Notes under the pieces: generated by a model | The model's database searches: none | The model's input: the letters and a program-made list of their open reading frames with translations, nothing else | Told to the model about the DNA's origin: nothing | DNA from: Eubacterium sp. | GTDB lineage: Bacteria > Bacillota > Clostridia > Peptostreptococcales > Anaerovoracaceae | Assembly (NCBI GenBank): GCA_017533915.1 | Contig: JAFWHX010000015.1 | Span: 175,151 to 239,150, forward strand | DNA: 64,000 nucleotides | Direction: 5' to 3' | Program-made: the position numbers and the translations under genes | Shown here: in pieces, positions 34,151 to 41,029 of the stretch | Position numbering within the stretch: position 1 is the first letter of the stretch | Layout: each line of letters opens with the position of its first letter

Positions 34151-34345
34151 ATGGACCCTTATCAGGAGCTCGCCAACGCCATCGTCCTTCAGGCGGTGAA
34201 GGACTACCGGATGACCGATGATGAGCGGGAACTGAAAGAAATCGAGCGCTTCTTCCGCTCCGCATGGTTTGGTGTGCTGACAAGCGTCGACCCGGACCTC
34301 CTGATCTCTAAGCTGCGGAAGGAGAAAAAGCAATATGACTACTAA
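34151..34345 (+). CDS. Small phage protein, unknown function
   Basis: A 64-residue helical protein (LANAIVLQAVKDYRMTDDERELKEIERFF) with conserved-looking FFRSAWFGVLTSVDPD, ending in a basic tail. It overlaps the DUF1492 gene by 11 bases. Proteins like this are common next to late-gene regulators in Firmicute prophages; role unknown. Confidence 0.7.
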   Translation: MDPYQELANAIVLQAVKDYRMTDDERELKEIERFFRSAWFGVLTSVDPDLLISKLRKEKKQYDY

Positions 34346-34757
34346 AACCTATCTGGGTCAGGCACGGTTTCTGGACATGCGGATCAAGTCCAAGATCCAG
34401 CAGATCGACTCCCTGCGGGAGCTGGCCACCAGCTGCACGGCGGTGTTCTCCGACATGCCGAGGAATCCCAACCACGGCTCTTCCAAGGTGGAACGCTGCG
34501 TGCTGAAGATCATCGAAGTGCAGGAAGGACTGAAGGACGACATCAACGAGCTGGTAGAGCTGAAGAAGGAAATCATGTCCACCATCAAAGCCGTGGATGA
34601 CGTGGAGCTTCAGACCCTGCTGGAGAAGCGGTATCTCTGTTTCCTGTCTTGGGAGAAGATCGCCGTGGAGATGCACTACAGCATCCAGCATATCTACCGG
34701 ATGCACGACTCGGCGCTGGCTGCCGTAACGGAAATTCTCGATGCGCGATCAGCATGA
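34335..34757 (+). CDS. DUF1492 phage regulator
   Basis: A 140-residue DUF1492 protein, helical throughout, ending in a sigma-like helix-turn-helix: LEKRYLCFLSWEKIAVEMHYSIQHIYRMHDSAL (about residues 96-128). Proteins of this group, related to ArpU-type regulators, lie just before the packaging genes and are thought to switch on late transcription. Here it precedes HNH and terminase. It begins within the previous gene and is therefore coupled to the replication operon. Confidence 0.8.
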   Translation: MTTKTYLGQARFLDMRIKSKIQQIDSLRELATSCTAVFSDMPRNPNHGSSKVERCVLKIIEVQEGLKDDINELVELKKEIMSTIKAVDDVELQTLLEKRYLCFLSWEKIAVEMHYSIQHIYRMHDSALAAVTEILDARSA

Positions 34758-37987: not shown

Positions 37988-38131
37988 TGCACAACACCTC
38001 CGGCGCTTCTTTGTGTAATAGGTAGAATGTCCCGGAAAGGCCTGAAATAAGCCGTTTTTCGAGAAATACAACTTGCTATTACAGGCCTTTAGAGTGATTA
38101 ATACACTACCCGAAGGGAACGGACCCACGGG
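37988..38131 (+). ncRNA. Structured leader element type 2, copy 1
   Basis: The element sits between the methyltransferase stop and the ATG at 38158. It starts with a TGCACAA...TTTGTGTA inverted pair. AAAGGCCTG (38036-38044) then pairs perfectly with CAGGCCTTT (38082-38090), enclosing AACTTGCTAT (38070-38079). AGAGTGATTAATACACTACC (38091-38110) follows, then a CCCG...GGG/CCC...CGGG hairpin, then CGGAGGT. Copies 2 and 3 keep the pairing with other bases. Confidence 0.65.
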
Positions 38132-38157
38132 ACATTCAAAAACGGAGGTACATTACC

Positions 38158-38937
38158 ATGACAAACATCAAGCTCGCAACCGACAACCGCAAGGCCGCAG
38201 CCCAGAGGCTGGCCGAGATCATCGGCGGGACCTCCCGCTACACCAAGGTTCCCAGATGCGCCTATGAGGTCGGACCCTACTTCATCGAGAAGGACGGAAC
38301 GATCACGGTTCCCGAAGACGCCGACCTGCAGCCACTCATGGCGCTGGCCGAGGAAGGCCTGCTGGAGCCCTTCGAAGCTCCCGCGCAGGAGGCCGACACG
38401 GCGGCCACGGAGCCGCAGGAAGCCGCTATCGAGGAAGAGACCGGCGACGACGCTGAAGGCCTGACGGTCAGCCTGCCGCTGGACGGCTTCAACCCGGACA
38501 GCCTTGACCGCCTGCAGAAGCTGGTGGACAGCAAGGCTCGCCTGATCAAGAAGGCCACCGACGCCGCCTGCCTGACGATCCGCAGGACCGAGGACCGGGT
38601 CGAGTTCCCTTGGTGGGACCGCATGCCGGAGCCGGAAGAAACGCAGGCTTACATGAGCCTGATCGCAGCCCTCTGCAAGATGGCCAAGGAGGCCACGCGG
38701 GTCACCGCCACCGAGACCGAGGTAGAAAGCGAAAAGTACGCCTTCCGGTGCTTCCTCCTCCGGCTGGGCTTCATCGGCAGCGACAGCAAGGCCCACCGGA
38801 AGATCCTGATGAAGCGCCTCTCCGGAACCGCAGCCTTCCCGAACAAGGAAAAGGCCGACGCTTTCTCCGCAGCCCAGAAGGCCAAGCGCGATGCCGCCAA
38901 GGCCAGCGCCGAGGCAACCGAGGAGGTGTCAGCATGA
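38158..38937 (+). CDS. Phage accessory protein, unknown function
   Basis: A 259-residue protein. The N-terminal part (residues 1-70) is a small mixed domain (AAAQRLAEIIGGTSRYTKVPRCAYEVG), a long acidic Ala-Glu linker spans about 75-105, and the C-terminal part is helical and basic, ending in a Lys/Ala-rich helix (KADAFSAAQKAKRDAAKASAE). Related proteins are sometimes labelled virulence-related in Firmicute prophages, with no known activity. It is the first gene behind leader copy 1 and overlaps the DUF4314 gene by four bases. Confidence 0.7.
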   Translation: MTNIKLATDNRKAAAQRLAEIIGGTSRYTKVPRCAYEVGPYFIEKDGTITVPEDADLQPLMALAEEGLLEPFEAPAQEADTAATEPQEAAIEEETGDDAEGLTVSLPLDGFNPDSLDRLQKLVDSKARLIKKATDAACLTIRRTEDRVEFPWWDRMPEPEETQAYMSLIAALCKMAKEATRVTATETEVESEKYAFRCFLLRLGFIGSDSKAHRKILMKRLSGTAAFPNKEKADAFSAAQKAKRDAAKASAEATEEVSA

Positions 38938-39167
38938 AGATGATCCGGCCTGAACAGCTCGCGCACCTGCGCAGCACCTACCCTCGCGGTACCCGCGTGG
39001 AGCTGGTCCAGATGGACGACGCGCAGGCACCGCCGATGGGCACCCACGGCACGGTCACCGGAGTCGACGACACCGGGAGCCTGCTGGTGGATTGGGACAA
39101 TGGCTCCGGCCTGAACGTGATCTGGGGAGTCGATGTGGTCCGGAAGGTGGTGACCGGCGATGACTGA
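38934..39167 (+). CDS. DUF4314 family protein
   Basis: A 77-residue protein of the DUF4314 group: LRSTYPRGTRVELVQMDD, then GTHGTVTGVDDTGSLLVDWDNG, an SH3-like small barrel. The ATG at 38934 follows AGGAGG inside the end of the previous gene; the long upstream frame is a shadow. Function unknown, common in phage and plasmid accessory regions of Firmicutes. Confidence 0.8.
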   Translation: MKMIRPEQLAHLRSTYPRGTRVELVQMDDAQAPPMGTHGTVTGVDDTGSLLVDWDNGSGLNVIWGVDVVRKVVTGDD

Positions 39168-39336
39168 AACCATCCGGGAGCAGATCCTCGCCATCCGGGA
39201 CACCGGCCTCACGAACATGTTTGACCTGCCGGTGGTCCAGCGGCTGGCCTACGAACGGGACTTCTTCGAGCTGGTCACCTTCCTTGAGGACCACCGCAGC
39301 GAATACGTCCACTTCATACTGACCGGCGAGGCCTGA
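39160..39336 (+). CDS. DUF5049-like small protein
   Basis: A 58-residue protein, too short for many gene finders: METIREQILAIRD-like start (MTETIREQILAIRDTGLTNM), then VQRLAYERDFFELVTFLEDHRSEYVHFILTG. This is the usual DUF5049 pattern and it often follows DUF4314, as here with an eight-base overlap. Function unknown. It closes the first small accessory operon. Confidence 0.75.
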   Translation: MTETIREQILAIRDTGLTNMFDLPVVQRLAYERDFFELVTFLEDHRSEYVHFILTGEA

Positions 39337-39350
39337 TCCTCGCAGCCAGA

Positions 39351-39371
39351 AGAGCCGCAGGAGGCTCTTTT
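39351..39371 (+). terminator. Rho-independent terminator of accessory operon 1
   Basis: AGAGCC (39351-39356) pairs with GGCTCT (39363-39368), followed by TTTT. A similar GAGCC/GGCTC hairpin (40532-40545) ends the next accessory operon, so each accessory unit is bounded by a leader element and a hairpin. Confidence 0.6.
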
Positions 39372-39384
39372 GGTCGTAGTAAAC

Positions 39385-39501
39385 TACACAATTTCAGGCC
39401 GCGATCCTTGTGCAAAATATGTTCAGGAATCCGGCACAAATAACTTGCTATATCTCCGGTTTAGAGTGATTAATACACTACCGCAAGGGAACACCCTACG
39501 G
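39385..39501 (+). ncRNA. Structured leader element type 2, copy 2
   Basis: TACACAA (39385) pairs with a downstream TTGTGCA. AACTTGCTAT lies at 39442-39451, enclosed by CCGG (39431-39434) and CCGG (39456-39459). The conserved 20-mer AGAGTGATTAATACACTACC is at 39463-39482, then CCG...GGG/CCC...CGG, then ACGGAGGT and the ATG at 39527. TTGTGC can also pair with GCACAA downstream, so two alternative folds exist. Confidence 0.65.
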
Positions 39502-39526
39502 AATTCACACACGGAGGTACACCACC

Positions 39527-39802
39527 ATGACGATCAACGAGGCAATGAGAACCTACAGGCTGCCGAACCCCACCACTCCGGAGGACCTCGAATGCCGCTG
39601 GAGCAAGGTCCTGAACTTCGGAGACAAGGTCCTGCTCGCCGGGTACTACTACAACGGCAAGAACAAGCCCTGCTACTTCGGAGCCACCTACGAATTCCTG
39701 AGCGACGACCGTTCCTGCGAGGGCACGATTGGCCTGAGCGCCGCCAGCGCGGTCGAATTCGAGGACGACGGACACGCCATCGCATGGGCGATGCAGCACT
39801 AA
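39527..39802 (+). CDS. Small acidic phage accessory protein
   Basis: A 91-residue acidic protein rich in beta strands and Tyr (KVLLAGYYYNGKNKPCYFGATYEFL). It is the first gene behind leader copy 2 and has a CGGAGGT site. Size, acidity and position in a repeated accessory operon are compatible with an anti-defence protein, but no family is recognised and this is only context. Confidence 0.65.
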   Translation: MTINEAMRTYRLPNPTTPEDLECRWSKVLNFGDKVLLAGYYYNGKNKPCYFGATYEFLSDDRSCEGTIGLSAASAVEFEDDGHAIAWAMQH

Positions 39803-39815
39803 GGAGGGAGACGCC

Positions 39816-40292
39816 ATGATGAGCAAGAACAACACCTACTTCGAGAACCTCAAGCGGATCGGCCACGATTGGGAGGCCGCCAGAGTCGAGCGTCAGGCTC
39901 GCAAGCAGCAGATCATCGACACCCTCGGCTGGGACAGCGACGAGCTCAAGGCTTGGTACGAGGAGGACGCCGCAGCCAAGTTCCCCTTCGAGTCGGGAGT
40001 CAGCAAGGCCTACCGCGCATGGGCACAGAGCCTTTCCCGCAAGGAGGACGAGCTGGAGATGGACGACTTCCTTTGGGACAAGGAGGTCGCGGACTTCATC
40101 GAGGCCCTTCGCAGCGCCGGGATCGAGACCTTCGTCTACACCAACCAGAGCACGGCGGTGATGGAAAACCTCCACGCCTTTGCCGCGCAGGGCTGCACGA
40201 TGACCGGCCTTTGCACCATCACCCGACAGGAAACCCGCTGGGGCGACGAGGAGCCCACCGAGGTCATGGGCATCCGCTTCAGCCTGAACTGA
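39816..40292 (+). CDS. Phage accessory protein (DUF7698-like)
   Basis: A 158-residue acidic protein. The N-terminal half is a charged helix (NLKRIGHDWEAARVERQARKQQIIDTLG). The C-terminal half (FIEALRSAGIETFVYTNQSTAVMENLHAFAAQGCTMTGLCTI) is an alternating alpha/beta domain seen in many small Firmicute prophage proteins. Activity unknown. It follows the previous gene by 13 bases with AAGGAGGG. Confidence 0.7.
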   Translation: MMSKNNTYFENLKRIGHDWEAARVERQARKQQIIDTLGWDSDELKAWYEEDAAAKFPFESGVSKAYRAWAQSLSRKEDELEMDDFLWDKEVADFIEALRSAGIETFVYTNQSTAVMENLHAFAAQGCTMTGLCTITRQETRWGDEEPTEVMGIRFSLN

Positions 40293-40305
40293 AGGAGGTG
40301 CCGGG

Positions 40306-40509
40306 ATGAACTATGCAGACAAGATGGAACGCGAGTCCCGTCTGATGGGACAGCTCGCAGACTGGATGGAGGCGCACGGCACGGTCCTTTCCGACCGGCA
40401 GCGCAGCAACGCCTACACCGGAGTCCGCATCCGGGAAATTGAATGGCGAGGCCGGACCTACCGCATCGTGGATGTGGACGGGATGACCTGCCAGATCGAG
40501 CGGCTGTAA
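40306..40509 (+). CDS. Small phage protein, unknown function
   Basis: A 67-residue protein: an N-terminal helix (RLMGQLADWMEAHG) and a C-terminal beta hairpin (VRIREIEWRGRTYRIVDVDG). The ribosome site is AAGGAGGTG. It is the last gene of accessory operon 2, before a GAGCC/GGCTC hairpin. Unknown role. Confidence 0.65.
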   Translation: MNYADKMERESRLMGQLADWMEAHGTVLSDRQRSNAYTGVRIREIEWRGRTYRIVDVDGMTCQIERL

Positions 40510-40531
40510 GCAAAAACGCCGCCACACCACG

Positions 40532-40550
40532 GAGCCTACGGGCTCTGTTG
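40532..40550 (+). terminator. Weak terminator-like hairpin of accessory operon 2
   Basis: GAGCC (40532-40536) pairs with GGCTC (40541-40545); only TGTTGG follows, so termination is uncertain. Its place matches the terminator at 39351. Confidence 0.35.
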
Positions 40551-40563
40551 GTCGTACATAATG

Positions 40564-40680
40564 TACACAAATGCCGTCGCAGATATTTGTGTAGATTATG
40601 GCCGATCAACGGCCAGATATAACTTGCTATATTCTCCGTTTAGAGTGATTAATACACTACCGAAAGGGAACACCCTACGG
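40564..40680 (+). ncRNA. Structured leader element type 2, copy 3
   Basis: TACACAAAT (40564-40572) pairs perfectly with ATTTGTGTA (40585-40593). AACGG (40608-40612) pairs with CCGTT (40636-40640) around AACTTGCTAT (40621-40630). AGAGTGATTAATACACTACC is at 40642-40661, then CCG...GGG/CCC...CGG, ACGGAGGT and the ATG at 40706. GGCCG/CGGCC (40600-40615) offers a competing hairpin. Confidence 0.65.
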
Positions 40681-40705
40681 AAAACACGAACGGAGGTAAA
40701 CCACC

Positions 40706-41029
40706 ATGACGAACGCTTACACACTGAGGAACCACTTCACGCTGGGCAACTACAACACCACGATCACCCGCGCCGAGTTTGAGGCCAGCTTCACCAAGAC
40801 CCGCGAGACGGTCACCTTCACCTTTGGCGGCTGGGACGGCAAGAGCTACGACGGCGAGAGCCGCAGGGCCAAGGTCCTCCGGACCAGCATTCCCGGCTAC
40901 GAGGGCATCCGCTTCATCAAGGTCGGCAAGCATCTGCACTATATCATGGAGGACGAGATGCGGATCGAGAAGGCCACCGGCGAGGCCCACCCGGAAGCCA
41001 GCTGGCTGGTGGACGTCGAGAGAGCGTAA
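40706..41029 (+). CDS. Small phage accessory protein
   Basis: A 107-residue protein with ITRAEFEASFTKTRETVTFTFGGWDGKSYDG in the centre and a mixed C-terminal part ending ASWLVDVERA. It is the first gene behind leader copy 3 and has a CGGAGGT site. No family is recognised; as in the two other units, the product is small, soluble and has no signal peptide. Confidence 0.65.
   Translation: MTNAYTLRNHFTLGNYNTTITRAEFEASFTKTRETVTFTFGGWDGKSYDGESRRAKVLRTSIPGYEGIRFIKVGKHLHYIMEDEMRIEKATGEAHPEASWLVDVERA

Follow-up and report, generated by a model that had tools for sequence, protein, structure and literature searches.

What are the three repeated elements that precede the first genes of small phage operons in a 64,000-nucleotide stretch of the Eubacterium sp. 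assembly GCA_017533915.1 (contig JAFWHX010000015.1, positions 175,151 to 239,150; hereafter the window)? An initial annotation described them as structured RNA leaders, in which eight variable bases between two invariant blocks were paired with an upstream partner that changed along with them. Our analysis led us to a different reading, namely that each copy is probably a phage promoter and not a structured RNA leader, and that its spacer often encodes an anti-Shine-Dalgarno sequence that could silence read-through mRNA. The computed properties of the element are its conservation, its fixed spacing, phased A/T tracts and an excess of complementarity between the spacer and the Shine-Dalgarno region.

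The pattern AACTTGCTAT-N8-TTTAGAGTG, where N8 denotes the eight variable bases (the spacer), was found at positions 38070, 39442 and 40621 of the window. All three copies were thus where the initial annotation had placed them, each with AACTTGCTAT exactly eight bases before the second block (TTTAGAGTGATTAATACACTACC). The 21-base version of the second block, TTTAGAGTGATTAATACACTA, gave three perfect matches in the window and none in 100 dinucleotide shuffles, even with three mismatches allowed. In copy 1, the first block AACTTGCTAT with its -35-like TTGCTA is located at 38070..38079, the spacer TACAGGCC at 38080..38087 and the -10-like second block TTTAGAGTGATTAATACA at 38088..38105, followed by the Shine-Dalgarno sequence at 38143..38149 and an ATG at 38158 (these and the following features are on the plus strand). 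The corresponding positions are 39442..39451, 39452..39459 (ATCTCCGG), 39460..39477, 39512..39518 and 39527 in copy 2, and 40621..40630, 40631..40638 (ATTCTCCG), 40639..40656, 40691..40697 and 40706 in copy 3. The first blocks were assigned by sequence and conservation, and the second blocks additionally by the shuffles. The other described parts were also present: CGGAGGT and then ATG behind all three copies, the CCG..GGG/CCC..CGG stretch, and an upstream inverted pair whose arms vary by one base between copies. This pair, to which no strand was assigned, reads TGCACAA/TTGTGTA 5' of copy 1 (37988..38017), TACACAA/TTGTGCA 5' of copy 2 (39385..39414) and TACACAA/TTGTGTA 5' of copy 3 (40564..40593).

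The element is real and widespread, and common to phages and mobile elements of Bacillota. The viral collection contained at least 120 stretches with the element when spacers of 2–20 bases were allowed (counts from this collection are lower bounds), and the spacer was exactly eight bases long in 77 of the 80 matches listed, the exceptions being L022, L066 and L071. A genome collection yielded 65 stretches, nearly all from Bacillota or relatives by title, with the exception of one from Desulfobulbaceae and one from a Kiritimatiellae metagenome-assembled genome. With a relaxed pattern, matches were found in 22 of 291 genomes drawn from the window's class, its own genome included, as opposed to none of the 291 with the reversed pattern. 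Anchoring each block in turn and leaving the other free defined the conserved cores as CTTG[C/A]TA[T/A] and [T/C]AGAGTGAT. The conservation of the blocks was far above chance, and the homologues and the recurrence before small phage genes that the initial annotation had anticipated were both found. For the statistics, 455 motif rows were dereplicated at 75% identity to 241 elements, with rows too near a locus end excluded; 239 of these had a called start, 234 a start within 110 bases, and 179 formed a strict set.

Several features point to DNA as the level at which the element acts. The A/T content upstream of the 241 elements oscillated in phase with the motif and peaked near -2, -13, -24, -38, -49 and -61. 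The best period was 11.7 base pairs with a power of 0.50, whereas 1000 sets with random shifts reached 0.017 at most, and the phasing was seen both in the GC-rich third and in the AT-rich third of the elements. Phased A/T tracts are a property of DNA, as found in bends, UP elements and sites of DNA-wrapping proteins. Within the element, a -35-like CTTG[C/A]TA and a -10-like YAGAGTGATATATG stand at fixed spacing. The consensus of the 241 elements reads TTGCTA or TTGATA, near the -35 hexamer TTGACA, although the search pattern itself demanded TTG[AC]TA; three matches with two mismatches carried TTGACT. Terminator-like hairpins on the same strand were present upstream of 23 of the 179 strict elements (2.4 in shuffles, maximum 8), compared with nine on the opposite strand and with 4/157 and 2/176 in control stretches. 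One of them, with a TTTT tail, was picked up by the terminator scan immediately 5' of copy 2 (39352..39373, plus strand). The element is probably DNA first and RNA second, and a promoter part is likely, judging from these sequence features.

Could the blocks instead act as RNA? A cis-regulatory leader, in which a ligand or protein would recognise the blocks in their transcribed form and a stem between N8 and the Shine-Dalgarno sequence would serve as the expression platform, would account for the complementarity described below, and for the core blocks lying on the sense strand, just 5' of the gene and in a single orientation in all elements examined. The long RNA of copy 3 also folded better than 200 of 200 shuffles (z -3.5); those of copies 1 and 2 reached just -1.5 and -0.9. 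No consensus fold emerged, however, from an alignment of window-type elements (32 sequences: 29 of 34 selected relatives and the three window copies), for which RNAalifold predicted two pairs, none covarying, at -0.82 kcal/mol. The upstream stem fared no better on these sequences, with 55.3% of cells paired against 54.8% in shuffles and a covariation score of 0.095, below the shuffled mean of 0.122. N8 showed no excess complementarity to the 60 bases upstream in a permutation over 234 elements (z 0.2). An upstream GGCCTG does match CAGGCC in copy 1 and its close relatives, while the counterpart in L025 lacks GGCCTG. The upstream stem was dropped as the partner of N8, as it showed no covariation and the match was limited to copy 1 and its close relatives. 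Searches of Rfam with the window copies returned no match at the gathering score and two unrelated chance matches at E values up to 10, so no relevant family was found. The covarying upstream partner and the selected RNA structure of the initial annotation were therefore not recovered, and the helix-phased A/T tracts are hard to account for in RNA. We regard a regulatory RNA leader as distinctly unlikely.

We infer promoter activity, a start site, a recognising factor and a silencing effect, which would fit together as follows. A/T-phased DNA, the -35-like CTTG[C/A]TA[T/A] and the -10-like [T/C]AGAGTGATATATG at fixed spacing would be read by RNA polymerase together with a factor, which may be a phage activator or an alternative sigma factor. 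Counted from the first A of AACTTGCTAT, transcription would start about 38–40 bases further on, at about 38108–38110, 39480–39482 and 40659–40661 on the plus strand for copies 1 to 3, and the promoter's own mRNA would begin just 5' of the Shine-Dalgarno sequence. The earliest Shine-Dalgarno sequence was at position 40, so that little leader remains, which fits such a start. The evidence leans towards a putative start downstream of AACTTGCTAT, a circumstance that the initial annotation had set against its own RNA reading. In some elements, copies 2 and 3 of the window included, the eight-base spacer also complements the Shine-Dalgarno region. Transcripts reading through from upstream promoters would be the only ones to contain this spacer, which would fold back in them and hide the ribosome site, in effect a translation lock, whereas the promoter's own mRNA would lack the spacer and be translated.

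The complementarity behind this lock was assessed with several controls. When N8 was permuted against other elements, its match to its own downstream leader gave a z of 7.6 over 64 elements (upstream: 1.8) and of 11.0 over 234 elements, where none of 5000 permutations reached the N8 value. Shared GC content raised the values of this simple permutation (z 5.5 for the in-gene control), and letter shuffles of N8 and GC-stratified permutations were therefore used as controls. With letter shuffling over 234 elements, the downstream z was 11.8 and the in-gene z 2.0; downstream helices of at least seven base pairs numbered 47, against 9.4 expected and eight for the reversed N8. In the strict set, 32 such helices were found against 7.5 expected, with an in-gene z of 2.5. 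GC-stratified permutation of the 179 elements gave 63 helices of at least six base pairs, against 31.2 expected and a maximum of 42, and 43 of the 63 overlapped the Shine-Dalgarno sequence (19.1 expected). Examples of the pairing are TTCCTCCA/TGGAGGAA and TACCTGTG/CACAGGTA. The eight variable bases do pair, as the initial annotation had it, with the correction that their stronger partner lies downstream, in the Shine-Dalgarno region, and not upstream.

Folding was consistent with the lock in part of the elements. In the predicted read-through RNAs of copies 2 and 3, N8 sits on the Shine-Dalgarno sequence (in copy 3 through CTCCG and TTT of the spacer), and an RNA starting from about position 40 does not contain N8. 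The mean unpaired probability of the start region over the 179 elements was 0.454 with the native N8, 0.490 with a GC-matched foreign N8 and 0.643 in the short RNA. The native N8 lowered the predicted accessibility in 112 of the 179 elements (p = 1e-5), an effect that was significant and small. In the models, the lock is thus supported for part of the elements, copies 2 and 3 among them.

A number of results weigh against the proposed promoter with an anti-Shine-Dalgarno spacer. On the promoter side, the second block contained no sigma-A TATAAT-like -10 (A2, T6, 16–18 base pairs) and had the conserved GATATATG in its place, a simple sigma-A scan of the region gave no promoters against 1.0 in shuffles, and just the 23 of 179 elements mentioned above had a terminator upstream. 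On the spacer side, no helix of six base pairs was present in 116 of the 179 elements, and copy 1 lacked the helix between N8 and the Shine-Dalgarno sequence. A control 8-mer at -25 also beat letter shuffles (z 6.3), equally so when reversed, unlike N8; a control 8-mer at -14 gave z values of 2.0 to 2.4. Letter shuffling of N8 furthermore left a small upstream excess (z 2.8 over 234 elements; in the strict set 13 helices of at least seven base pairs against 7.2, z 4.0). The register of the helix varied, and covariation at a fixed register was weak (best z 2.6–3.2). In the window-type alignment, the covariation between N8 and the Shine-Dalgarno sequence was 0.078 against 0.067 in shuffles, a value reached by 9 of 500 shuffles, and a slide of -2 gave a higher value (0.125). 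In this register, 72.3% of cells were paired against 71.5% in shuffles, and two pairs had both partners changed (0.4 in shuffles). Covariation of N8 with the Shine-Dalgarno sequence, the start codon or the element at a fixed register was rejected as a line of evidence on account of its weakness. Likewise, a lock of copy 1 suggested by its fold, CCGTTTTT/AAAAACGG, was dropped, as the relatives L010 and L034 alter those bases. Finally, in 156 of the 179 elements the RNA with a swapped N8 likewise had a lower accessibility than the short RNA, so most of the gap between long and short RNA is independent of which N8 is present.

Taken at face value, the scarcity of clear helices, the missing lock of copy 1, the weak covariation and the small effect on accessibility would suit a promoter alone, with a functionless spacer whose Shine-Dalgarno complementarity stems from composition. 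This explanation nevertheless has to contend with an excess that persisted under letter shuffling, reversal and GC-stratified permutation, and with the concentration of helices on the Shine-Dalgarno sequence, and we consider it unlikely.

Which factor would recognise such a promoter? The window encodes a candidate activator, a DUF1492/phrog_36 transcriptional regulator (34335..34757, plus strand), identified by profile matches. The protein matched phrog_36 at 1.4e-27, while a match to ArpU was weak and below the cut-off; among relatives in the PDB, none was convincing (best E 0.13). We hypothesized that the promoter is activated by the phage's own DUF1492/phrog_36 protein, a relative of late regulators, an idea compatible with the promoter model set out above. 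Matches to phrog_36 were present in all 20 element-bearing records searched, the window's own genome among them. They were also present in six of seven phages without the element, and 12 of the 14 well-known control genomes gave a match as well. Co-occurrence thus has no discriminating power, and naming the factor in this way was abandoned because phrog_36 is nearly universal. The candidate gene also ends 3.3 kilobases before copy 1, and no phage-specific direct repeats were evident upstream of the element: repeats within elements clearly exceeded the cross-element level solely at lags 9, 12 and 24, and this excess was spread diffusely over the sequence. Direct repeats were accordingly discarded, as a diffuse excess at multiples of three is what upstream coding sequence would give. 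Activation by this particular protein is therefore doubtful.

The blocks might also bind a repressor instead of polymerase, with the promoter located elsewhere. Such an operator would suit the inverted CACAA/TTGTG pair that window-type elements have upstream. In contrast, the core blocks themselves are not palindromic and have one orientation to the gene in the elements examined, and the scan of the region gave no other promoter, which makes an operator very unlikely. The inverted pair, approximately 55 and 24 bases 5' of the core in window-type elements, is possibly the site of a regulator. The 5-mers CACAA at -55 and ATTTG at -25 were enriched.

The proposed promoter with its silencing spacer has a partial precedent in phage T4. 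According to the reviews PMC3014915 and PMC2988022, long RNAs of e, soc, 49 and I-TevI hide the ribosome site, and the late promoters of e and I-TevI are placed such that the late RNA loses the 5' part of the hairpin. As in those accounts, the long RNAs of part of our elements, copies 2 and 3 among them, are predicted to mask the Shine-Dalgarno sequence, and the promoter-started RNA would lack the 5' strand. The element differs in sequence from the T4 late promoters given there (TATAAATA). Unlike in the T4 cases described, its 5' strand is placed in a fixed eight-base gap between invariant blocks and turns up in a wide range of unrelated gene contexts, as predicted from sequence. A second parallel comes from staphylococcal phages, where a conserved stretch before int is a sigma-H promoter without sigma-A boxes (PMC2869324). 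Both are conserved stretches right before phage integrase genes; whereas the sigma-H promoter is reported there in staphylococci alone, our element precedes several gene types in many Bacillota lineages. Compared by eye, the int sequence quoted in that source does not contain CTTG[AC]TA..AGAGTGAT. Late promoters of the Ltr (RinA/ArpU/LtrC) type in Gram-positive phages have upstream direct repeats and an adjoining regulator gene, according to PMC13123087. The likeness would lie in phage-controlled promoters near packaging genes, and this phage encodes the DUF1492/phrog_36 protein as a candidate regulator; unlike the promoters described there, the element lacks such direct repeats and its candidate gene is at a distance. 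No description of the motif was among the papers listed by the literature searches, whose coverage leaves out most subscription journals, and the papers listed for matches to short strings were, by title, not on phages.

The genes behind the copies in the window differ from each other. The region of the copies is situated between a DNA methyltransferase gene and a large terminase gene. By profile match, the first gene after copy 1 (38158..38937) is assigned to the amidoligase enzyme family phrog_2443 and that after copy 2 (39527..39802) to Nmad4 (PF18756), while the 107-amino-acid protein after copy 3 (40706..41029) had no family match in four libraries; all three are on the plus strand. PADLOC, whose library covers defence and not anti-defence, gave no matches among seven proteins. 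A crude pattern search of the 179 first proteins of the strict set recovered 22 amidoligase-like proteins and five serine recombinases. The relaxed motif (up to two mismatches) was present in 12 of 19 phage records, and in 7 of these 12 a copy was located immediately 5' of a gene annotated as serine recombinase, integrase or DNA invertase (MK448667.1:51088, MF172979.1:65755, PV036449.1:54837, MW387018.1:35298, PV036460.1:47701, MK448883.1:32608 and MK448674.1:34872, the last with two mismatches). Integrases and accessory genes thus seem to share one control site. A strong lock was mostly absent from the integrase-linked copies examined.

It is quite possible, if short of probable, that a dedicated promoter class across Bacillota phages and mobile elements jointly switches integrases and pre-terminase accessory genes, with many spacers being gene-tailored anti-Shine-Dalgarno sequences, so that the same DNA would start one RNA and lock the translation of every other. 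In Bacillota phages, many of them from gut samples, a control site this close to invariant (241 dereplicated copies) ahead of integrases and accessory genes would offer a handle on when and by what these genes are switched on. If the lock is true, it would provide compact silencing of neighbouring genes in tight phage operons, would tie a single eight-base stretch to both promoter spacing and its own ribosome site, and would generalise a mechanism known from a handful of T4 genes.

Further copies were observed in other contexts. MW387018.1 (Gardnerella phage vB_Gva_AB1) carries four motif copies, and its terminase is 86% identical to that of the window; its named host is an actinobacterium, a label open to doubt. 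The host genome of the window contains a fourth copy under the relaxed pattern (G000:C9:1583-1613, locus L413) with no clear gene start right behind it, perhaps a prophage remnant. A near-identical multi-copy version, CTTGCTATATCAGCGGTTCAGAGTGATGAAT, ending in TTCAGAGTGATGAAT, had seven matches in three genomes; it was found in L414 and L416 and also in contigs C32, C40, C41 and C47 of genome G128. In the two loci examined, L414 and L416, it sits 5' of a reading frame of 100 amino acids, the start of which, as we read it, resembles an antitoxin. In L423 (PV036454.1, 23679-27020), the amidoligase module runs opposite to the terminase genes and brings along its own copy of the element, with one mismatch, as a self-contained cassette would.

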